DNA of 64,000 nt from assembly GCF_900112795.1 (NCBI RefSeq), contig NZ_FONA01000005.1:124001-188000 (forward strand). The letters are read 5' to 3'. Positions 20,346 through 30,080 of the stretch are shown here, in pieces. The DNA comes from Thermophagus xiamenensis. GTDB taxonomy: Bacteria > Bacteroidota > Bacteroidia > Bacteroidales > Marinilabiliaceae. The position numbers were made by a program, and so were the translations under genes. A model generated the notes under the pieces. The model searched no databases, was not told where the DNA came from, and was given only the letters and a program-made list of their open reading frames with translations. Every line of letters begins with the position of its first letter. Positions within the stretch are counted from its first letter, which is position 1.

Positions 20346-21893
20346 TTATTTAAGTTGAATTTTGAAAGCGATGGCCATTTCATCAACGGGTTTTTCCGGC
20401 AGATTCAAAAGCAGTCCCTGATCGGTTAGTTGATAGTCAATTTTTCCGTCGTAGCCCAAAAGAGTTACATTTTCTATTTCTCCGGCATTTTTCCACTGGT
20501 CTTTTGCAAATGCTTCAAGCATTACTTGCGCATTGTTACCAGGCCATCCTAATGCCATGGCATATATTACATTGCTTTTAGTGGTATATCTGATGTCTTT
20601 GGCAGAATACTTGATTTTCAGGAATTTTTGGTGATTGCTAAAATGACCCTCCGGTTCTTTTGTCGGACCTTCCCCGTAGGTGTACCAAGGGCGGGTTTCG
20701 TATATGGCTTCACCATAATTGTTTAGCCATTGGCCAATGGACAGAAGAACGTCACGTTGATCTTGAGGAATGGTGCCGTCTGCTTTAGGTGAAATATTGA
20801 GGAGTAATACCCCATTCTTGCTTACAATATCAATCAGAACGTGAAGGACATCGGCGGCAGGTTTGATTTTGAGGTTTTTGGTATAACACCAGCTTCCGGT
20901 GCTTAATGTTTCATCCGTCATCCATGACTTATCTTCCAACCTGTTTTTTCTTGATTTTTCCAAGTCGTCCACACTGACATTGAGAGGCAAGTCGTTTTGT
21001 TTGCGGACGATTACCACTTCTTTATTTTCTTTTGCAGCGTGGTTAAGATAATATGCGCAAAATTTGATTCTGTATTCCTCGGGAATCTGATCGAGCCATG
21101 AATCAAACCAAATGATGTCGGGATCATATTTGTCGATTACTTCCTTTAATTTTCCAAACCAAACTTCTTCCACCCATTTGTCTTCCGGAATATTACCATA
21201 CAGATAATTCAGCTCGGGGTCATCTTTTGCAGGAGGAAGCCCTTTAAACAGAGGGTAATGGCTGTCCCAGAAAGCACTACCAAGGTTGTCTTTGTGTTTT
21301 GCAATTTCCTGTTCTTCTTTTCCCTTATAACGTTGAAGATTTCTGGCATGATGAAAGGTGGTGATAAACTTCATTCCCCGCTCTTTAATTGCTTTTCCCA
21401 GTTCACCGGTAATGTCTCGGTGTGGTCCTTTATCCATAGCATTCCAGGGGGTGATGTCACTGTCCCACATAGAGAAACCGTCGTGGTGTTCGGCTACCGG
21501 GCCGGCAAAGCGGGCTCCTGCTTTTTGGAACAGATCTGCCCAATCATCGGGGTCAAAATGTTCTGCTCTAAACATCGGCACAAATTTGCTGTAATCAAAT
21601 TCTGCCGGGTCACCATAGGTTTCAAGATGATGCTGATACTCTTTGGTCCCTTTAAAAAACATCCAGCGAGGGTACCATTCATTTCCGAATGCTGGGACCG
21701 AATATACTCCCCAGTGAAAATAAATTCCAAATTTGGCATCCTGGAACCAATCTGGTTGTTCGTTGTATTTGGCCAATGATTCCCATGATTCTTCATACCT
21801 GGGAGCCGTTTCCTGTTGTACTTTTTTCGGAGCTGTTCCGCAACTGCTTGCCACAAGCAATGCCAGGACAGAGCTGAAAATTAGTTTTTTCAT
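20346..21893 (-). CDS. Alpha-L-fucosidase lipoprotein (GH29)
   Basis: A 515-residue protein from the ATG at 21893 (MKKLIFSS); an ATG three codons earlier is possible. The signal peptide ends in a lipobox (LLVASSC), so the enzyme is a lipoprotein, probably outer-membrane anchored. The GH29 catalytic barrel spans about residues 35-370, with HWGVYSVPAFGNEWYPRWMF (family N-terminal motif), AEHHDGFSMWDSD (substrate-binding His pair) and DPDIIWFDSW, whose Asp (about residue 264) is the expected retaining nucleophile. A beta-sandwich C-terminal domain follows. GH29 releases L-fucose from glycans. Its place at the end of a fucose uptake and metabolism operon fits: released fucose would enter through FucP. 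Glycan source (mucin, plant xyloglucan or algal fucan) is not determined. Confidence 0.93.
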   Translation of the reverse strand: MKKLIFSSVLALLVASSCGTAPKKVQQETAPRYEESWESLAKYNEQPDWFQDAKFGIYFHWGVYSVPAFGNEWYPRWMFFKGTKEYQHHLETYGDPAEFDYSKFVPMFRAEHFDPDDWADLFQKAGARFAGPVAEHHDGFSMWDSDITPWNAMDKGPHRDITGELGKAIKERGMKFITTFHHARNLQRYKGKEEQEIAKHKDNLGSAFWDSHYPLFKGLPPAKDDPELNYLYGNIPEDKWVEEVWFGKLKEVIDKYDPDIIWFDSWLDQIPEEYRIKFCAYYLNHAAKENKEVVIVRKQNDLPLNVSVDDLEKSRKNRLEDKSWMTDETLSTGSWCYTKNLKIKPAADVLHVLIDIVSKNGVLLLNISPKADGTIPQDQRDVLLSIGQWLNNYGEAIYETRPWYTYGEGPTKEPEGHFSNHQKFLKIKYSAKDIRYTTKSNVIYAMALGWPGNNAQVMLEAFAKDQWKNAGEIENVTLLGYDGKIDYQLTDQGLLLNLPEKPVDEMAIAFKIQLK

Positions 21894-21936
21894 AGTACTC
21901 AAATTATTATTTCAGATTTTAAAAGATTATCGATTA

Positions 21937-22240
21937 TTATTCTGATTTTATTTTAGGTGAATTGATGCATTTATGGCATACTGTTAAATAGGTTATTTCA
22001 TCTGGATTAACCGGTTTTCCATCTCTTAGGATACCTTGTTGCGGGGTTTTATTCCTCAGATTGCCCCAGTAACTAAATCCGCCACCATAGAATCCGAACC
22101 AATCATCAAACCCTCTTAGGTTTGGCCAAAACTTTGGATGATCACCGGGGTGCCATTTCCCAATGGCACAAGTATGGCACCCGTTTTGCTTTAAAAAAAT
22201 CTGATATTAGCAACTGATCCAATGGAAGTCCGGCTTTAAT
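21937..22240 (-). pseudogene. Fragment of a formylglycine-type sulfatase
   Basis: Between the aldo/keto reductase and fucosidase genes the minus strand encodes, with one frameshift near 22190, AGLPLDQLLISDFFK and then CHTCAIGKWHPGDHPKFWPN, RGFDDWFGFYGGGFSYWGN, RNKTPQQGILRDGKPVNPDE and a stop at 21937. This is the region of type I sulfatases just after the CxPSR active site, including the conserved GKWHxG and RGFDxxFGFxGG motifs. The first ~80 residues with the formylglycine cysteine and the last ~300 residues are missing. It is a decayed sulfatase gene inside a fucose operon, which hints that the ancestral locus handled a sulfated fucose-containing glycan. Confidence 0.85.
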
Positions 22241-22248
22241 CCCTATTA

Positions 22249-23265
22249 CTATTGGGCTATCTTGCCATCCAAATCCCATAGATCTTCCCAACCTCTAGCT
22301 CCTTCCCATAAAAAGACCTGACCTTTTATTAAACGGGAGTTACAATCTACTTTTTTCATTTCCTCCATCTCTTCCTCAGTCAATGGGTCTTTAATAGCAT
22401 TGGCAAGGTTGCTGTAATATTTGGATCTGTGTACCGAGAAGGGAATCGGAATTTGTCCTCTTTGAATAGCCCATTTAATACAAACGATGGCAGGATGTAC
22501 GCTAAGTCTTTCAGCAATTTTTACAACAATTGGGTGTTCAATATCCACAGCATCCTGGTCAGTACGGTCTCTTTCCGGTCGTTTGGGCGATCCTATAGGA
22601 GAATAGCCAATAGGTTGCATTCCTTTCTCTACAACATAATTAAATAGTTCCGGTTGCTGAAAACATGGATGAAGTTCCATTTCATTTGCAGCAGGCAAAA
22701 TACGCATATGAGGAAGAGTGGCTTCAAATTTGGCAATTGTCATATTCGAAGTTCCGATGTTTTTTGTCAACCCTTTTTCCACCAGAGCTTCCATCTGTTT
22801 CCATGTATCCATGAATTCGTCCACGCTAAAGGGTTTCGAATCTGGATTTCGGGCATCGGGAGGTGCACCGGGAGCATGGTGGTTGGGGAAAGGCCAATGA
22901 ACCAAATAAAGGTCAAAATAGCCAATACCCAGATCTTCAAGAGATTTCCGGCAAGCCTTTTCAACTTCTCTATGATGGTTGTTCCATACTTTTCCGGTAA
23001 TCCACAAATCTTCCCTTTTAACAGTTCCCTCCTTTATCACCTCTGCAATTGCTTGCCCTATTTCCTTTTCATTCATGTATACTTCCGCACAGTCAATATG
23101 ACGGTAGCCGAGTCGAATTGCATCCTTTACAGCTTCCGCAATTTCTTCTTTGGAATAAAAATCGGAACCAAAAGTACCCAATCCTATTGCAGGAATTTCA
23201 TCTCCCGAACGAAGCTTTTTTTTGGGTACCAATTCAGGATTTATAGGTTCAAAATTTTCTGACAT
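22249..23265 (-). CDS. Aldo/keto reductase of the aldose-reductase group, in the fucose operon
   Basis: A 338-residue cytoplasmic oxidoreductase with the AKR barrel. The catalytic tetrad is visible: Asp in YRHIDCAEVYMNE (about 53), Tyr in the same motif (about 58), Lys in WITGKVWNNHH (about 92) and His in YLVHWPFPNHH (about 127). AKRs of this branch (AKR1-5) use NAD(P)H to reduce aldoses or oxidise polyols; VHRSKYYSNLANAI near residue 280 is the cofactor phosphate-binding region (usual KS...R.N), suggesting NADP(H) or mixed use. It sits 12 bases after the DUF6786-like gene and shares the operon with a zinc dehydrogenase. Reduction of L-fucose to L-fucitol, or of lactaldehyde to propanediol, are two candidate reactions; both are inference. 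Confidence 0.9.
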   Translation of the reverse strand: MSENFEPINPELVPKKKLRSGDEIPAIGLGTFGSDFYSKEEIAEAVKDAIRLGYRHIDCAEVYMNEKEIGQAIAEVIKEGTVKREDLWITGKVWNNHHREVEKACRKSLEDLGIGYFDLYLVHWPFPNHHAPGAPPDARNPDSKPFSVDEFMDTWKQMEALVEKGLTKNIGTSNMTIAKFEATLPHMRILPAANEMELHPCFQQPELFNYVVEKGMQPIGYSPIGSPKRPERDRTDQDAVDIEHPIVVKIAERLSVHPAIVCIKWAIQRGQIPIPFSVHRSKYYSNLANAIKDPLTEEEMEEMKKVDCNSRLIKGQVFLWEGARGWEDLWDLDGKIAQ

Positions 23266-23277
23266 ATCTAAAACAAT

Positions 23278-24411
23278 TTAAAATAAAAAAAATTCTGCAG
23301 GATCAACACCAAATATTTTTCGAGCTAAATCTTCCAAAACATTCAATTCTCCTTTAAAATGACAGGTAGCATGTTCATGTATCTTGGTTTGACCGGGCTT
23401 TAAATTGGCAGCAGCCGATGACGTTTCCAATTCATAAAATGGTCCCATAATTGTTCCGTCAGGCAAGGGCCCGTCGTTGTAAGAATTAACTACATCTCCA
23501 TAAAACGGATCATCCTGAAATTCCCACATGGAATTAATATAATCTGTTAACCCGGGTTCAAAAGTATACTTCACTACCGTAAGAGTGCTATTTACAGGGT
23601 CAAAACTACCCAAAACAGGTACTGCCCTTTTAGGGCCAATACCAATCTTGCCTCTTTTTTTACCGTCACCTTTAAACAATACGGCATGCGGTAAAACTTT
23701 TATCCTGTCATCATCTATTTTCCCGAAATAACGATCATTTACCACAGGCCCTTCGCCCTCCGGGTTAACAGGAATGATTACAGTATTTCTGTCCGACGGA
23801 AACAGTTGTCCCAAAATCCAAATCGATGGCATCCCGGTTTCTTTGTTCCACTCGAAATCTCCTTTGTTAGTCAGTTTATTTTCCGACTTAAAGCAAACGG
23901 ATTTTACACCATCAGGCAGGTCAACACCTAAATCGTCAGTTATCCTATTCGAGTCTAAAAGACGAACCACCCTTTCTGCATACATTTTGAACACATGTCC
24001 GGCATAATTTGGCATTTCAATTTCCTTATCTAACACCACGCTGGTATCTGAGGCTTCCACCAAATTCCAACTTTCGGTATCAATACATGGCGGAGTTTGC
24101 CAATTATCCAAGTTAAATTCACTGCCTTTTTTAAAGAAAAAAGAAAACTGTCCGCCTTCCGGACCTATCCAGAACCGATCTTCTCCCCCAAAATTATTGC
24201 AGTGAGGCAAAAACTTTCCCGATTGTATCAAATCATAATTAACCCAACCAAAGCTGTATCCGGCAGGACCTTCAGCAGAACTGGTAACCACCCTTCCCTG
24301 AAGGGAAGGGCTTATAACCAGTTTTGAATCGTCTTTTTTCAATTCAATGATTTGAACGTGATTTCTCAGGAAATCAACATCATAACCATAAGTTCCTTTA
24401 GGATATGACAT
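23278..24411 (-). CDS. DUF6786-like protein (aldose-mutarotase-like fold) in the fucose operon
   Basis: A 377-residue protein starting at the ATG of 24411; the two codons before it would need a TTG start. There is no signal peptide. The sequence is rich in beta strands (SPSLQGRVVTSSAEGPAGYS, NNFGGEDRFWIGPEGGQFSF, HATCHFKGEL) and resembles the DUF6786 family often annotated beside carbohydrate genes. The GGEDRFWIGPEGG segment recalls the sugar-binding face of galactose-mutarotase-like proteins. It is tightly packed: 10 bases after the zinc dehydrogenase and 12 before the aldo/keto reductase. FucU in the same operon already provides fucose mutarotation, so a different role such as an isomerase or lactonase step is possible. 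Function is unknown. Confidence 0.65.
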   Translation of the reverse strand: MSYPKGTYGYDVDFLRNHVQIIELKKDDSKLVISPSLQGRVVTSSAEGPAGYSFGWVNYDLIQSGKFLPHCNNFGGEDRFWIGPEGGQFSFFFKKGSEFNLDNWQTPPCIDTESWNLVEASDTSVVLDKEIEMPNYAGHVFKMYAERVVRLLDSNRITDDLGVDLPDGVKSVCFKSENKLTNKGDFEWNKETGMPSIWILGQLFPSDRNTVIIPVNPEGEGPVVNDRYFGKIDDDRIKVLPHAVLFKGDGKKRGKIGIGPKRAVPVLGSFDPVNSTLTVVKYTFEPGLTDYINSMWEFQDDPFYGDVVNSYNDGPLPDGTIMGPFYELETSSAAANLKPGQTKIHEHATCHFKGELNVLEDLARKIFGVDPAEFFLF

Positions 24412-24421
24412 AATCAATTAT

Positions 24422-25492
24422 TTATTTTATCTCTTCATCAAAAACCACGGCAACTTTTCCGCATTTTCCACTAGCCATCAATTCATAAGCTTTATCTGCC
24501 TGATCAAGAGTAAACCTATGAGTTACGAGATCTTCTGGATGAATACCCCAACGGACCAGGCGTTCAACCAGCTCCTCCATTCTCCAGGTAGATGTCACCC
24601 AACTACCGTAAATGGTAACCTGATCATGAATCATATCGGGTGAGGGATTCAACTCCATTGTGCCGCCTTCACCCACTAAGGCAACTTTACCCCATTTCCG
24701 GGCAGCTCTCACACATAACTGCCGGGCATGAGTATTTCCGGAACAGTCGATAGCTTTTTCATATCCAAAACCATTAGAAGCTGCCATTGCTTTTTCCAAA
24801 GCATCGGGCCCTGAAACAAAAACTTCATCAACAAGGCCTTTCTCTTTGGCTATTTTGCAACGCTCCTCACTGACATCTGTACCGACAACACGACTTGCTC
24901 CTAATGCTTTTGAAAGCATACAGGCGGCCAGTCCCACAGGCCCCAGCCCGGTAACCAACACTTGATCATTCCCTGAAATCCCTATTTTCTCAAGGCCTTC
25001 GTATACGGTACCGAAGCCACAAGCTACCTGGGCCCCGTCGGTATAGGTCAGTTGGTCCGGCAGATATATCAAATCCTTTTCGTCGGCCAACAGGTATTCA
25101 CACATACCACCATCTCTTTGCCATCCATAAGCAGCCCGATGTTCGCTGGTACAAGAAATCATATATCCGCGACGACAATCATTGCATACCCCACATCCCG
25201 ATATATGATAAACTATAACTCTATCACCTTCTTTAAAACGTTTCATCCCAGGGCCGCACTCGACAATTTGTCCGCATGGCTCATGCCCAGCCACAACATT
25301 TTGATAAGCTTCGGCACCTTTACCCAGATGTTCATGATAAATAGCACGAATATCCGAACCACAAATGGTAGATGATTTGACCTTAATAATTACCTGGCCG
25401 TGTCCCGGTGCAGGAATTTCAACATCTCTAAGTTCTACGGTGCTGTTGCCCGGCAAGAAAGCACCTTTTGTTTTTCGACTTTGTCCAGCCAT
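24422..25492 (-). CDS. Zinc-dependent medium-chain dehydrogenase in the fucose operon
   Basis: A 356-residue cytoplasmic MDR-family enzyme. Catalytic zinc ligands are Cys in STICGSDIR (about residue 44), His-Glu in AGHEPCG (about 69-70) and a further acidic residue. The structural zinc lobe has four cysteines in CGVCNDCRRGYMISC (about 100-114). The Rossmann motif GLGPVGLAAC (about 183) is followed by Asp at the end of strand 2 (VVGTDVSEER), which favours NAD+. The nearest functional types are sorbitol/threonine dehydrogenase-like enzymes acting on polyols or sugars. With FucP, FucU and an aldo/keto reductase it probably acts on L-fucose, L-fucitol or lactaldehyde. A 122-base gap separates it from fucP upstream. 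Confidence 0.88.
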   Translation of the reverse strand: MAGQSRKTKGAFLPGNSTVELRDVEIPAPGHGQVIIKVKSSTICGSDIRAIYHEHLGKGAEAYQNVVAGHEPCGQIVECGPGMKRFKEGDRVIVYHISGCGVCNDCRRGYMISCTSEHRAAYGWQRDGGMCEYLLADEKDLIYLPDQLTYTDGAQVACGFGTVYEGLEKIGISGNDQVLVTGLGPVGLAACMLSKALGASRVVGTDVSEERCKIAKEKGLVDEVFVSGPDALEKAMAASNGFGYEKAIDCSGNTHARQLCVRAARKWGKVALVGEGGTMELNPSPDMIHDQVTIYGSWVTSTWRMEELVERLVRWGIHPEDLVTHRFTLDQADKAYELMASGKCGKVAVVFDEEIK

Positions 25493-25614
25493 CTTTTTAA
25501 CTTATTGAAATTAAGTAATTGATTTTATATATCGAATTGTTTTTCCAATTCATAAAACAACAATTAAACCCGAAAGTCTCCTTCCTAAAAACTGAAAATA
25601 GTTTTTAAAGTGAA

Positions 25615-26961
25615 TTAACTTTTTGACATTAAATAATCATCTTTTAAATAGTATTTGTGAGAATAATAACTGTAAACAGCCACGACAATAAAGGAAACCA
25701 TAGGTAAAACAAATGAGAAATTAACTTCAGGAATATAACCGAACAAAAGGACGTCAGAAAACCCTTCTCCACCCAAATCGAGAATTAATCCTTGAAGGGG
25801 TGGCAATAAAGCACCTCCCACAATTGCCATTACCAAACCTGCGGATCCAAGTTTGGCCTCTTCCCCCATATCTTTTAAGGCAATCCCATAAATAGTTGGG
25901 AACATTAATGACATCATAACAGAAATGCCTACCAAACAGTATAATCCTCCCATATCAATAATAAATATGGTCCCAAGAGTCAAACCTATTGCGCCTAAAG
26001 CAAAATACATCATCAGTTTTCCCGGGCCTATATATTTAAGCAGGTAGGTACTTAATGCTCTTCCTGTCAAAAATGCTACCATGGCTGCCATATTATACCA
26101 GGTTGCTGTAAGTTGTGCATCGGCTGGTCGCGAAGCATTTAAATTATCTACATACTGAAAAATGAAAGTCCAACACATTATTTGAGCTCCCACATAAAAG
26201 GCCTGAGCAATTACACCGAAATAATACCTTTTATTTTTCATCAATACTCTGAAAGACTGACCTACGGGCAAATGTGCCTCTTCTTTCAACTTTGGCATTT
26301 TAGCTACAGCAATCAGGATGAACATAACCAACACCAGGCAACCCAGTCCGATATATGGCCAGCTAATTACACTAAGGTCATTACTTCTAATTGCTGCTTG
26401 TTCAGAAGCAGAAAGAGCATTATATTGGGCGGGCGTATAATCGTCCGACTGAAGTAAGTTGATAACAAACAGTTGTGCCAATAACATTCCCAGCAATGAT
26501 CCGGGAGGATTAAAGGTTTGAGAGAGATTCAAACGACGCGTAGCCGTTTCCTTGGCACCCATTGATAGGATAAAGGGATTAGATACGGTTTCCAGGAAGG
26601 CAAGGCCAAAAGTTAATACATACAGTGATGCCAGAAAAAATCCAAACTTCTCATAAGCTGCTGCGGGATAAAACAACAAAGCACCAGTTGCATACAATAA
26701 CAACCCAAGCAAAATTCCTTTTTTGTAAGAATATTTTCTAACAAATAGGGCTGCGGGGATAGCCATGGTAGCATAACCACCATAAAAAGCGAGCTGAACC
26801 AACGCTGCCTCAAAATTGGAAAGCTCAGGCATGACTTTCTTAAAGGCAGAAACCATAGGATTGGTTAAGTCATTGGCAATGCCCCACAAAAAAAAGAGAC
26901 TGGTAATTAAAATAAAGGAAACAAGATGTTGTTTTTCAACTACTTTACTTTTAGTTTCCAT
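25615..26961 (-). CDS. fucP: L-fucose:proton symporter
   Basis: A 448-residue inner-membrane transporter of the major facilitator superfamily, FHS family. It has about 12 hydrophobic segments. The N-terminal SFILITSLFFLWGIANDLTN, the EAALVQLAFYGGYATMAIPA segment and FLETVSNPFILSMGAKETA are signature stretches of FucP and its glucose/galactose (GluP) relatives, including the conserved Glu needed for proton coupling. A long loop around residues 170-195 is typical. Ten bases after fucU, with a fucosidase at the operon end, fucose is the likely substrate; glucose/galactose cannot be ruled out by sequence alone. Confidence 0.9.
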   Translation of the reverse strand: METKSKVVEKQHLVSFILITSLFFLWGIANDLTNPMVSAFKKVMPELSNFEAALVQLAFYGGYATMAIPAALFVRKYSYKKGILLGLLLYATGALLFYPAAAYEKFGFFLASLYVLTFGLAFLETVSNPFILSMGAKETATRRLNLSQTFNPPGSLLGMLLAQLFVINLLQSDDYTPAQYNALSASEQAAIRSNDLSVISWPYIGLGCLVLVMFILIAVAKMPKLKEEAHLPVGQSFRVLMKNKRYYFGVIAQAFYVGAQIMCWTFIFQYVDNLNASRPADAQLTATWYNMAAMVAFLTGRALSTYLLKYIGPGKLMMYFALGAIGLTLGTIFIIDMGGLYCLVGISVMMSLMFPTIYGIALKDMGEEAKLGSAGLVMAIVGGALLPPLQGLILDLGGEGFSDVLLFGYIPEVNFSFVLPMVSFIVVAVYSYYSHKYYLKDDYLMSKS

Positions 26962-26971
26962 AAAACTTTTT

Positions 26972-27409
26972 TTATTGGTTCACAGGAGTCAATCCTTTTT
27001 TCAAGATGATATTCCCGTATTTTGCTGTTTCACCAGTAACAACTACCGCATAGGCAGATTTGGTACGATTATAAAATTCGAATCGTTCAATTCGTCCAAC
27101 TTCTTTTATCTGAGGATTAGTTTTATGAATACTTTCCATATATTTCCTTTCTACTTCAGGATCAAGGGTGTCACCCTCAACCGCTTCCATCATTATTAAC
27201 GGATGAGGAACATAAGTATCCAGTTCAAACAATGGCAAAATACCTTCGAGCAGTGCCGGGATAGAAACTCCGTCAGCTCTTAATACTCGTGCATTTAAAC
27301 TTTCGGCCGGAAAATGCGCATCGGAAAGTACTATTTCATCCCCATGCCCCATAGCAGACAGTACTTTAAGCAAGTCCGGACTGATCACCGGTGAAATTCC
27401 TTTCAGCAT
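26972..27409 (-). CDS. fucU: L-fucose mutarotase
   Basis: A 145-residue RbsD/FucU-fold protein that interconverts the alpha and beta anomers of L-fucose. Family features are the start [20 protein letters not shown], the catalytic-site [19 protein letters not shown] (with His22 and the DxHFP motif), and the C-terminal [18 protein letters not shown] with Tyr at the subunit interface. Length is normal. It is the first gene after a probable promoter and the ROK regulator, with fucP ten bases behind. Of all genes here this one best identifies the sugar as L-fucose. Confidence 0.93.
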
Positions 27410-27429
27410 GATTTTACTTTTTAAAGTTA

Positions 27430-27437
27430 CAAAACTA
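27430..27437 (-). promoter_or_regulatory. Candidate -7 box before fucU
   Basis: The minus strand reads TAGTTTTG, fitting TAnnTTTG, 20 bases before the fucU start in the 46-base gap after the ROK gene. It would give the fucose genes a promoter separate from that of their regulator, or boost it. Confidence 0.4.
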
Positions 27438-27455
27438 AGTTTAAATTATTTTATA

Positions 27456-28670
27456 CTAAACATTTAACTCCAAAACCTCTCTTAAAATAAGAGAAACAGC
27501 CCCTTTTACAGCAGCTTCGTCCCCAAGGCGACTCTGAATTACTTTAATTTTGCGACTGGGTTGCTGTATAATCTCACGTTGAAATACTCTATTAATTCTT
27601 TCTATAAAGAAATTTCCTGCCTTTATCACTTTGCCGCCAAGCACAATAGCCTGAGGATTAAAAACATTCGCCATTGAAGCAATAGATATCCCCAACAAGT
27701 CTGCTGCCTGGTTAAAAAGCTGTAATGCCAGCTCATCCCCCCTCCTGGCATATTCGGCTATCACCTCCGTGGTTATTTCAGACACCCTTCCGAGTGCCGA
27801 ATCTTTATAATATTTTATCTTTTCTCTGGCCAATTCAGCAATTCCGCGTCCGGAAGAATAACACTCAAGACAATCCATCTTTCCACAAGCACATCTTAAT
27901 CCCCCTGCTGCAGGAGAAACAATTCGGTTATGTCCTATTTCACCAGCCATACCGTCATACCCGGTAAAGGACTTTCCTTCAACAATGATTCCTGCACCTA
28001 TCCCATACCCAACATTAATGAAAATAAAATCTTTACAATGATCCCCAATGCCATATAATAATTCGCCATGGGCCATTACACGAGAAACATTATCTACAAT
28101 CACAGGCACTCTAAAACGCTCGGCAAGAGGCTTCCTGATATCAACATTTTTCCATTTAAAATTAGGTGAATATTCAATTATGTCTGATTTTTTATTTATA
28201 AAACCCGCTGCAGCAACCCCTATTCCATGTAATTTCCTGGTATCTATTCCGGAGCCTTTTATTAGCTTTTCGATTAATCTAATGGCACTCTGCAGGTCCT
28301 CATCAAAATTGTCATTGCTTTCGGTTTGTACATCCAATTCCTCCAGGACATCACCATTCAAATTGGACAGAATCCCAAAAATATGAGTCCGCCCCCAATC
28401 AACACCTACCACATAACTATCTTCCCCATTAAAACGCACGATCATAGGCGGCCGTCCACCACTGGAAATTCCAACACCAACCTGCTCAACCAGTTTTTCA
28501 GCATTAATCAGATTGTCCACTATTCTAGTAACAGTTGGGGCACTCAACCCGGTTTTCTTCACAATTTCAGCTCTCGAAATCTCACCAGACTCCCGAATTA
28601 AGTTTAAAACCTGAATCTTATTCAAACGATTGATGTATTCTGCACTCCCTTTTGGTTGATCTTCTGGCAT
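27456..28670 (-). CDS. ROK-family transcription regulator (NagC/Mlc type) of the fucose operon
   Basis: A 404-residue protein with an N-terminal winged helix (about residues 12-75: NKIQVLNLIRESGEISRAEI, TGLSAPTVTRIVDNLI) followed by a ROK sugar-kinase-like domain (VGVDWGRTHIFGI, GYGIGAGIIVEGKSF TG). The zinc site is complete: GH in GEIGHNRI and CxCGxxxCxExxSS (CACGKMDCLECYSSG). The ATP-binding kinase motif is degraded relative to true ROK kinases, as in NagC/Mlc repressors. It lies first on the strand leading into fucU-fucP, which suggests it represses the operon and is released by L-fucose or a derivative. A direct kinase role is unlikely. Confidence 0.9.
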   Translation of the reverse strand: MPEDQPKGSAEYINRLNKIQVLNLIRESGEISRAEIVKKTGLSAPTVTRIVDNLINAEKLVEQVGVGISSGGRPPMIVRFNGEDSYVVGVDWGRTHIFGILSNLNGDVLEELDVQTESNDNFDEDLQSAIRLIEKLIKGSGIDTRKLHGIGVAAAGFINKKSDIIEYSPNFKWKNVDIRKPLAERFRVPVIVDNVSRVMAHGELLYGIGDHCKDFIFINVGYGIGAGIIVEGKSFTGYDGMAGEIGHNRIVSPAAGGLRCACGKMDCLECYSSGRGIAELAREKIKYYKDSALGRVSEITTEVIAEYARRGDELALQLFNQAADLLGISIASMANVFNPQAIVLGGKVIKAGNFFIERINRVFQREIIQQPSRKIKVIQSRLGDEAAVKGAVSLILREVLELNV

Positions 28671-28692
28671 ATAACAACTTTTTAATGCTGCA

Positions 28693-28700
28693 AAAATAAG
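28693..28700 (-). promoter_or_regulatory. Candidate -7 box of the ROK regulator gene
   Basis: The minus strand reads TATTTTTG, a TAnnTTTG match 22 bases before the ATG at 28670, within a very A/T-rich leader. Confidence 0.35.
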
Positions 28701-28830
28701 TTTTTCACAAAAAAAATATTTTTTTTAAACAAAACAAAAATTTAGTAGAATCTTCTGTCTCATATCAGAAAAAAGTTGATAAAAAATAGTGACCCATGGA
28801 ATCCATTTGGAACACCAAATATCAAACAAG

Positions 28831-29843
28831 CTGGAGTTTCCTCAAAAATTAATCAGGGAATAAAGTTAACTGGAATTGTTTGTGATGAGGACCAATTCGA
28901 TTTTTAAAATCAGCAATACCTTTCCTGCTATGTTTAAGAAGCTCATAAATACCATCGATCATAGCATAGTTAAAGAAAGTTGTAACACCAAAGAACCTTT
29001 TTGAGAGGATAAATATTTATTGTACCATAATTTTTAATTTCAATGATATTCCGATATAAATACTTGTAAAATAGGCAATACAATGGACAAGGACTGTAAT
29101 ATTCCGTATGGAATTGTAGCTTAATATCCTAATATCTTCCAGATTGTATGATTGTTTAATGTAACGGTAACATTCATTACATTTCCATCTTGTAAGATAA
29201 ATTTCGACTATTTGCCATAACTGTTTATTGTTTTGAAGATTCACCTCTTTATTTGTAAGCAACAGCAGCGGATGCTTTCCAAAACCTTTAACAATAACAA
29301 GAATATATTAGATATCAGGTTATTCAGGCAATGTAACTTTTACAACACCATATAGATAAATGTATAAATTTTTCCTTCCAATCTTTGGTTATAAAAAAAT
29401 GGGTTTTGTATGGCGTAGCTACATGATGTTGTATTCTTTCTGGTTTGATCTGGTGGTTGATGTTTCCTGCAAAATGGAGATATCGGCTCATTTTTTAACG
29501 TACTACAAAGTCGAGTTCTTCTCTGGTAAAACCTTTTTATATATCGATGTCATTCCCTTCTCGGTCAATAGCCCAAGTGCCTTTCGGTCCGATGTTTGAT
29601 TTCACCAAGTTCTTTTGTAATAAGTTCCTGAAAATTTAATACATTGCATTTTGAATAGGTCCTATAATAAAGAATTTGCGTCCATAAGCGTTCTACAGTT
29701 TAGTCTAATAGGGAAGATTGTAAAATGGACGCAATTTTTTTTAAGGAATCTTGCTTTAAAATGACTTTTCAGATTTCTTATCTTCTAAATAACTAAAAAG
29801 CTTAATGTTTTGTCTTTTTTGCGGGCTTTTGAGGAAACTCCAG
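28831..29843. mobile_element. Dead insertion sequence with perfect 17-bp terminal inverted repeats
   Basis: CTGGAGTTTCCTCAAAA at 28831-28847 and its exact reverse complement at 29827-29843 bound a 1013-base element containing a ruined transposase gene on the minus strand. Flanks (AAACAAG on the left, TAACCAG on the right) show no obvious target duplication, as expected for an old insertion. The element fills most of the otherwise gene-free stretch between the fucose operon and the histidine kinase. Confidence 0.85.
28849..29640 (-). pseudogene. IS4-like DDE transposase, multiply broken
   Basis: Reading the minus strand with several stops and frameshifts gives GPKGTWAIDREGNDIDI, EELDFVVR, a stop, then LTNKEVNLQNNKQLWQIVEI, YLTRWKCNECYRYIKQSYNL, EDIRILSYNSIRNITVLVHC, and finally FNYAMIDGIYELLKHSRKGI, with stop at 28849. 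The YLTRW...E.....K arrangement is the YREK-type signature around the catalytic Glu of IS4-family DDE transposases. The N-terminal part is poorly preserved and no single frame exceeds 81 residues. Confidence 0.8.
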
Positions 29844-30080
29844 TAACCAGAAAGAGAGCTTGAATTGCACACACTAAAATATTAAACACTACCTCGATGG
29901 TTAGTAGTTTAGTGACCGGAGGGACTAATGACTCGGGCCTTTTTGCTCATTGCCGGAAACATTGGGTGAAAAGACCCGTCCGGCGCACTTAAAACGCTAT
30001 TATTGGGGTTGTTGATTCCATTGGTCAGGAGATGGAACAGTGAGACAGAATAAGGTGGCTGTAAAAGGATAAAAAAGTTG

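Follow-up and report, generated by a model that had tools for sequence, protein, structure and literature searches.

Mucus and brown algae both contain L-fucose as a main sugar. The phosphorylative breakdown of L-fucose by an isomerase (FucI), a kinase (FucK), and an aldolase (FucA) leads to L-lactaldehyde, as does that of rhamnose. The first enzyme of the oxidative L-fucose pathway is a short-chain dehydrogenase/reductase (SDR). Two degradation routes are described in a 2026 review (PMC13406643), according to which the NAD-dependent dehydrogenase of the oxidative pathway starts from the beta-anomer of L-fucose, and a study on Bifidobacterium (PMC6817895) proposes a fucose route to pyruvate, lactaldehyde, and 1,2-propanediol. 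Here, we focus on a seven-gene locus in a 64,000-nucleotide stretch of the Thermophagus xiamenensis genome (Bacteroidota; contig NZ_FONA01000005.1, positions 124,001 to 188,000; assembly of 3.9 Mb, 99.99% complete), hereafter the window. It is an operon for L-fucose use, apparently of an undescribed type, in which a redox pair, composed of a zinc-dependent medium-chain dehydrogenase (MDR) and an aldo-keto reductase (AKR), replaces the isomerase, kinase, and aldolase. What can be read from the sequence alone is a predicted fucosidase, a predicted fucose permease and fucose mutarotase, an MDR-AKR pair that recurs in other genomes, and no FucI match. We tentatively propose, with doubt still somewhat outweighing confidence, that the operon belongs to a third L-fucose route spread across Bacteroidota, in which a YphC-type MDR and an AKR, often accompanied by a mutarotase-fold or cupin helper, would replace FucI, FucK, and FucA and which would stand outside the classical oxidative cluster.

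With the phosphorylative pathway the locus shares FucU, FucP, and a fucosidase, but the window genome has no FucI match, and neither a kinase nor an aldolase gene is linked to the operon; a first-pass annotation of this DNA had noted that the locus lacks fucI, fucK, and fucA, which was confirmed. The oxidative pathway of Xanthomonas, Burkholderia, and Campylobacter is similar in that an NAD-dependent dehydrogenase acts on one anomer of L-fucose (PMC13406643), here in the company of a permease and a mutarotase; unlike that pathway, the window locus contains no lactonase, dehydratase, 2-keto-3-deoxyfuconate (KDF) dehydrogenase, or FAH hydrolase. The 2-keto-3-deoxyfuconate aldolase route of Bifidobacterium resembles our proposal in its overall chemistry and redox balance (PMC6817895), although the window operon has no dehydratase or aldolase gene and the reductase proposed here is an AKR. 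In the open-licence literature of PubMed Central, we found no description of this operon, no paper on DUF6786, nothing relevant on an L-fucitol dehydrogenase together with fucose or on an AKR together with fucI/fucP or propanediol, and nothing on the substrate of the Escherichia coli yph operon.

The operon and its recurrent MDR-AKR pair

All seven genes lie on the minus strand (Table 1), in the order ROK, fucU, fucP, MDR, DUF6786, AKR, and GH29, with gaps calculated from the coordinates of 46, 10, 122, 4, 12, and 346 bp, respectively. The MDR, DUF6786, and AKR genes are likely co-transcribed, since they are nearly contiguous. The first-pass reading of an L-fucose locus was borne out, as FucU and FucP exceed their curated cut-offs, the GH29 match is clear, a ROK gene is present, and the seven genes stand where they had been placed; the protein it had called DUF6786-like is a true member of that family. 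ROK relatives with 51% and 69% identity also stand first in the operons of two other loci that carry the MDR-AKR pair (L180 and L190). In our reading, the N-terminus of the GH29 enzyme is lipoprotein-like, and an ATG three codons into the frame is a likelier start than the listed TTG.

Table 1. Genes of the proposed L-fucose operon, with positions in the window
Feature	Position	Strand	Evidence and proposed role
ROK-family transcriptional regulator, first gene of the operon	27456..28670	-	PF00480, 218.9 bits, plus N-terminal winged helix-turn-helix
fucU, L-fucose mutarotase	26972..27409	-	NF011949, 211 bits (cut-off 141)
fucP, L-fucose:H+ symporter	25615..26961	-	TIGR00885, 496.8 bits (cut-off 280.4)
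YphC-type zinc-dependent MDR	24422..25492	-	PF08240 and PF00107; proposed NAD-dependent L-fucose 1-dehydrogenase
DUF6786 protein without signal peptide	23278..24417	-	PF20583, 492 bits (cut-off 27); proposed cytoplasmic ring-form helper
Aldose/aldehyde-reductase-type AKR	22249..23265	-	PF00248, 174.9 bits; proposed NADH-recycling reductase
GH29 alpha-L-fucosidase	20346..21902	-	PF01120, 342 bits, plus PF16757

The MDR protein was searched against 393 genomes of the order (E 1e-100) and 395 genomes of the phylum (E 1e-80), which revealed a close MDR in 12 and 3 genomes, respectively, the window's own included in both; the other 11 in the order sample are all 72-78% identical to the window protein. 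A set of 17 loci with an MDR of at least 67% identity was then considered (the window, L052, L053, L054, L180-L190, L240, and L241). In 16 of these 17, which come from several families, an AKR gene shares the gene run of the MDR, adjacent to it or one gene away. This holds for all 11 order loci (L180-L190), where the AKR is 59-73% identical to that of the window, as well as for two loci from metagenome-assembled genomes (MAGs), L052 (Rikenellaceae) and L053 (labelled Cytophagales), and for the phylum loci L240 and L241. The remaining locus, L054, lies on a 4.5-kb contig of an Alistipes MAG, where the MDR gene directly precedes DUF6786 and no AKR is in view. The association of AKR and MDR is above chance, and it is this pair, not DUF6786, that forms the conserved core of the operon. 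Fucose markers (FucP, FucU, FucI, GH29, or GH95) are found at 12 of the 16 pair loci, including GH29 or GH95 at L052, L053, L185, L188, and L189, and a ROK or LacI regulator gene is found at 7 of the 16.

The MDR resembles a zinc-binding dehydrogenase of E. coli, 52-53% identical over 99% of the query with shared motifs, which we take to be YphC (on the same assumption, YphA to YphH is used for the operon). In E. coli, whose record is filed as a plasmid, the next gene encodes an aldose 1-epimerase with the same sequence as PDB entry 3nre, and the two genes are surrounded by those for an ABC transporter, a DUF5107 protein, and a ROK protein (L233:712-10952). The yph operon thus resembles the window operon in its MDR, in an epimerase of the DUF6786 fold directly after the MDR, and in a ROK-family gene, although the two ROK proteins are only 23% identical; unlike the window operon, it has no annotated AKR, FucU, FucP, or fucosidase and possesses an ABC transporter instead. 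Outside Bacteroidota, 5 of 50 matching plasmid records were examined. Among these, a Neorhizobium plasmid encodes a 41% identical MDR, and the genes after it are arranged as in an oxidative aldose pathway, with a FucU-family mutarotase first and then an SMP-30 lactonase, a GntR regulator, an enolase-superfamily protein, and an SDR. No AKR is annotated beside either the E. coli or the Neorhizobium MDR. The two nearest relatives seen outside Bacteroidota therefore adjoin an aldose-epimerase or mutarotase gene and, because alditols have no anomers, these neighbours suggest that the MDR takes a reducing sugar. By analogy, a reducing sugar is also suggested as the substrate of the E. coli yph MDR and its epimerase.

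Where the third zinc ligand is expected, the MDRs of the window, E. coli, Neorhizobium, and Rhizobium leguminosarum carry Cys (within CGFGT in the window protein), though that of Agrobacterium does not, and the three sorbitol and threonine dehydrogenases of solved structure in the alignment carry Glu (EPL). This Glu is presumably the third catalytic zinc ligand of polyol dehydrogenases, and the window MDR lacks this hallmark of the sorbitol type. As we read the alignment, an Asp ends the second beta-strand of the Rossmann fold, as would be expected of an NAD-type MDR.

Aldehyde reductases are the best solved relatives of the AKR. What we take to be the Asp-Tyr-Lys-His tetrad of aldose/aldehyde-reductase-type AKRs is kept throughout the 14-sequence alignment, with Asp in H[IL]DC, Tyr in VY, Lys in [GS]KVWN, and His in [VI]HWPF, and the IPKS motif of aldehyde reductases, presumably their NADPH site, reads IPFS in the same 14. 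Because Phe stands in place of this Lys throughout, the AKR is likely NADH-linked, and the MDR-AKR pair may consequently be redox-neutral.

Several neighbours of the pair are worth recording. PfkB-family kinases with 78% identity to each other lie near the MDR-AKR operon at both L180 (10154-11233) and L053 (12592-13671), the latter coming after a UxuA-type mannonate dehydratase. At L182, which also has a YphC-type MDR, a second zinc dehydrogenase of the threonine/idonate-dehydrogenase type (1242-2288) is encoded between FucP and the AKR. The pair is located near arabinan-type genes for GH43, GH3, and arabinofuranosidase at L241 (126-8093) and near a pectate lyase gene at L240 (5812-9099), and from these surroundings it may serve other sugars too.

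DUF6786 and other ring-form helpers

Searched by sequence, DUF6786 has no relative among solved structures (best E 0.2, unrelated), and a fold search alone yielded one. The AlphaFold2 model of the window protein (pLDDT, the predicted local distance difference test, 95.8; pTM, the predicted template-modelling score, 0.94) has 3nre as its best Foldseek match (E 4.8e-11), and VIA comparisons gave Z 21.4, root-mean-square deviation (rmsd) 3.3, and 256 aligned positions with 3nre, and Z 22.5, rmsd 2.9, and 251 aligned positions with 3k25. The predicted fold is thus that of galactose mutarotase, which makes a ring-form helper likelier than the catabolic step of its own, acting on a pathway intermediate, that had initially been suggested for this protein.

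A search of named genomes returned at least 593 matching stretches for DUF6786; after confirmation 576 remained, and of these the best 80 were analysed. The closest among the matches listed are from Rikenellaceae, Cytophagales, and Alistipes MAGs. Of 75 intact homologues among these best 80, 71 have a hydrophobic leader, with a lipobox in 53, and the four leaderless ones are L052, L053, and L054, all directly behind an MDR, and L107, where the copy begins at a contig end. A leader is likewise missing from the window copy, so that all four MDR-linked copies lack a signal peptide. Judged from these N-termini, a cytoplasmic form of DUF6786 would appear to have become the MDR partner, whereas the common form appears to be exported and lies in some loci near FucI or FucP: FucI (66-69% identity) is found at 8 and a FucP-like protein (at least 41%) at 9 of the best 80 loci. 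These exported proteins, which occur beside FucI/FucP in several phyla, belong to the same family as the window protein (46-52% identity) but differ in their leader. DUF6786 was found in 19 of the 395 phylum genomes and 31 of the 393 order genomes, the window's own in both.

Two roles considered for DUF6786 were given up. A general partnership with the MDR was ruled out, as MDR and AKR lie within 1.5 kb of DUF6786 at one of 50 loci checked, the window's own, and in three genomes with the pair (G588, G524, and G768) DUF6786 is encoded away from it. The idea that it substitutes for L-fucose isomerase, which arose since FucI, DUF6786, and a cupin each adjoin the pair, was dropped because exported DUF6786 also occurs in loci with FucI (the 8 of the best 80 mentioned above).

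Other putative ring-form helpers are encoded at pair loci as well. FucU is present at the window, L180, L185, L186, L188, and L190, and a RhaM-type protein at L053. An AllA/DUF4867-type cupin directly follows the MDR, in the place of DUF6786, at L181 (2135-2698), L185 (10624-11127), and L190 (10803-11303), the latter two being 79% and 84% identical to the L181 copy. DUF4867 proteins have been proposed as mutarotases or ring isomerases (PMC11968277); a sulfoquinovose-type isomerase role for this cupin was considered and rejected, as that source assigns no isomerase activity. Overall, at least one helper (FucU, RhaM type, DUF6786, or cupin) is found at 9 of the 16 pair loci, and an MDR gene followed by a helper gene recurs with DUF6786 (window, L052, L053, and L054), aldose 1-epimerase (E. 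coli), a FucU-family protein (Neorhizobium), and the cupin (L181, L185, and L190).

Two DUF6786 loci have features of their own. Three DUF6786 matches are present in G768, a genome from the same family as the window, and an in-frame TAG is read through in one of them (L148, G768:C24:85500-86606). In another Bacteroidota locus (L027:7748-17408), FucI, a lipoprotein-like DUF6786, and a DUF2961 protein lie beside SDR, Amidohydro_2, FAH, and GD_AH genes, a combination of parts from both known fucose routes (isomerase and oxidative type).

Fucose enzymes elsewhere in the genomes

A genome-wide search of the window assembly with the FucI domain Fucose_iso_N2 (PF07882) gave no match, the remaining FucI domains lying outside that search. 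Three FGGY kinases are encoded, namely a XylB-like protein (below cut-off), an AraB (over cut-off), and one in the rhaA operon. Of the three class II aldolase genes, the first is araD in an araA-aldolase-kinase operon, the second, adjoining the gene of a true L-rhamnose isomerase, encodes a tandem-domain, FucA-like protein (below the FucA cut-offs), and the third lies near a GH28 gene. None of these kinases and aldolases reaches the FucK or FucA cut-offs, and a complete FucI-type pathway was not found, although an unlinked kinase and aldolase might accept L-fuculose. The suggestion made at the outset, that the rest of the genome be checked for fucI, fucK, and fucA, thus has a divided outcome, with no match to FucI but with unlinked FGGY kinases and class II aldolases present. 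Nor was there any sign of a Xanthomonas-type pathway in a search that left out the DHDPS, IlvD, and GD_AH families. The rhamnose genes lie on contig C26 (L046:6640-10613), where the L-rhamnose isomerase gene is followed by those for an FGGY_C_2 kinase and the 430-aa two-domain tandem class II aldolase, an architecture also seen as frames of 433-444 aa in G500, G599, G650, and G768.

Among the 13 other pair genomes searched for FucI, a set that leaves out those of L240 and L241, FucI is present in 8 and unmatched in 5, one of the latter being a 2.0-Mb MAG of unstated completeness. Four of the nine pair genomes of stated high quality have no FucI match (G535, G768, G712, and G524), and none was found in the genome of L054. 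FucI lies within the gene run of the pair itself at 3 of the 16 pair loci (L183, L184, and L186); the run at L186 comprises a RhaB-like kinase (below cut-off), FucI, FucU, AKR, MDR, and FucP. At least one class II aldolase was detected in 11 of 12 pair genomes searched, with G712 having a single one of AraD length. The remaining genome, G524 (99% complete), has neither a class II aldolase nor a FucI match, yet carries the pair together with FucU, FucP, and GH29. With no such aldolase matched in its assembly, G524 is unlikely to use a route via L-fuculose-1-phosphate and a class II aldolase.

A proposed route and its rivals

In the scheme that we favour, GH29 would release L-fucose, FucP would import it, and FucU, together with the cytoplasmic mutarotase-fold DUF6786, would hold it in the ring form required by the MDR. 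As these helpers act on anomers or ring forms, the MDR would take a reducing sugar, which it would most simply oxidise at C1; with NAD+, it would convert L-fucose to L-fucono-lactone, C1 being the presumed position. The lactone would hydrolyse to L-fuconate, which would be dehydrated and cleaved, probably to pyruvate and L-lactaldehyde, by enzymes not located in this analysis. The AKR would then reduce L-lactaldehyde, its presumed substrate, to 1,2-propanediol and thereby re-oxidise the NADH formed by the MDR. The specific assignment of the MDR as L-fucose 1-dehydrogenase and of the AKR as NADH-recycling reductase is possible, and we hold it with more reservation than conviction.

Several observations weigh against this scheme, whose weak point is the middle steps. 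The window genome has a single FAH-family protein (203-212 aa), unlinked and on another contig. Its four enolase-superfamily matches include a ManD (over cut-off) and an Ala/Glu-epimerase-like protein (below cut-offs), and we read the other two as probable MenC and enolase; for L-fuconate dehydratase, this search thus offers ManD and three unlikely candidates, the GD_AH and IlvD types not having been searched. Queries for FAH, GD_AH, Amidohydro_2, MR_MLE, ManD, and SMP-30 found no homologue in the 16 pair loci (DHDPS-type aldolases were not part of this search), and the only dehydratase in view there is the UxuA-type protein of L053, which, with its PfkB kinase, is probably for mannonate. With regard to the helpers, 7 of the 16 pair loci have none, and DUF6786 adjoins the pair at only one of the 50 loci checked. 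The Neorhizobium FucU-family protein scores 71 bits, under the L-fucose mutarotase cut-off of 141, so that its sugar may or may not be L-fucose, and the 1-dehydrogenase of that plasmid could be the SDR instead of the MDR. Relatives of about 38% identity on two Rhizobium plasmids and one Agrobacterium plasmid lie in sugar loci with no annotated mutarotase in an incomplete gene table. L187, L240, and L241 carry the pair with no fucose genes in view. Finally, the strict pairing of AKR and MDR suits an oxidoreductive isomerase as well.

The latter is the chief rival, possible and not favoured. Here, the AKR would reduce L-fucose to L-fucitol and the MDR would oxidise this to L-fuculose or another ketose, which would then pass to an unlinked kinase and aldolase, for example those of the rhamnose operon. 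An AKR working with an MDR is familiar from fungal xylose reductase and xylitol dehydrogenase, and the first-pass annotation had inferred the same for this operon. The coupling itself stands, being seen at 16 of 17 loci, and the AKR is a member of the aldehyde/aldose reductase class; moreover, FucI is unmatched in the window genome and in 5 of the 13 others, next to RhaA the window genome encodes both a kinase and the tandem aldolase of FucA-like type, and the second MDR of L182 carries the EPL motif of polyol dehydrogenases. The conversion of L-fucitol to L-fuculose is, however, weakened at several points. FucI in the gene run of the pair at L183, L184, and L186 would make the pair redundant for producing L-fuculose, and class II aldolases are unmatched in G524 and limited in G712 to the one of AraD length. 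The YphC-type MDR, unlike sorbitol dehydrogenase and the fungal xylose pair, has Cys in place of the third-ligand Glu, and mutarotase partners, another difference from the fungal pair, would make little sense for an alditol dehydrogenase. We therefore regard this conversion as rather unlikely, if still a serious contender.

The three other explanations considered are less probable still. The pair might handle end products only, interconverting L-lactaldehyde, 1,2-propanediol, and acetol while fucose is degraded by a route encoded elsewhere. Phosphorylative fucose and rhamnose routes do give L-lactaldehyde, and the L186 run, with its RhaB-like kinase, FucI, FucU, and FucP, would place the pair downstream; yet one aldehyde needs no two separate redox enzymes, none of the 17 loci shows a recognisable rhamnose operon around the pair (the window genome's own rhaA operon is on another contig) though rhamnose yields the same aldehyde, and the upstream route would be left unexplained in a genome with no FucI match, all of which renders an end-product role quite unlikely. 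Alternatively, the pair could epimerise, with the MDR forming a keto-sugar from ring-form L-fucose or L-fuculose and the AKR reducing it to an epimer, for example converting L-fuculose to L-rhamnulose at C4 for entry into the rhamnose pathway. The MDR does match the profile of scyllo-inosose 3-dehydrogenase, a ring-carbon oxidiser (158 bits, below the cut-off of 450), the window genome has a rhamnose operon, and co-occurrence with FucI in three gene runs would fit; nevertheless, G524 lacks a class II aldolase match and hence a RhaD of that family, the AKR is of the aldehyde-reductase type, and we know of no precedent for an epimerising MDR-AKR pair, so that epimerisation seems improbable. Least probable of all, to the point of being hard to credit, is a broad-specificity aldehyde/alcohol module carried along with sugar loci and standing outside fucose catabolism. 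It would account for the pairs with no fucose genes in view at L181, L187, L240, and L241, of which L181 (contig start) and L241 (contig end) lie at the edges of their contigs, but it sits poorly with the fucose markers at 12 and the ROK or LacI regulators at 7 of the 16 pair loci.

Whether L-fucose ends as lactate, 1,2-propanediol, or another product affects gut and marine communities, and surveys based on FucI, FucK, and FucA or on the Xanthomonas-type cluster would score this organism and the FucI-less pair relatives as fucose non-users. The module also provides a first hypothesis for DUF6786, for the AllA/DUF4867-type cupins beside the pair, and for the E. coli yph enzymes; if the third route exists, it would predict the kind of substrate of the latter, a reducing sugar accepted in a single ring form.

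With respect to transcription signals, the scans for promoters and terminators gave counts close to those expected from shuffling (33 versus 27.6 and 11 versus 9.0, respectively). Upstream of the operon, 1.4 kb (28671-30080) separates the ROK gene from a histidine kinase gene, has no open reading frame longer than 81 aa, and far exceeds the length needed for an operon promoter. The strongest terminator-like site, at 20308-20285, comes just past the GH29 gene and consists of a hairpin and a T-rich tail.

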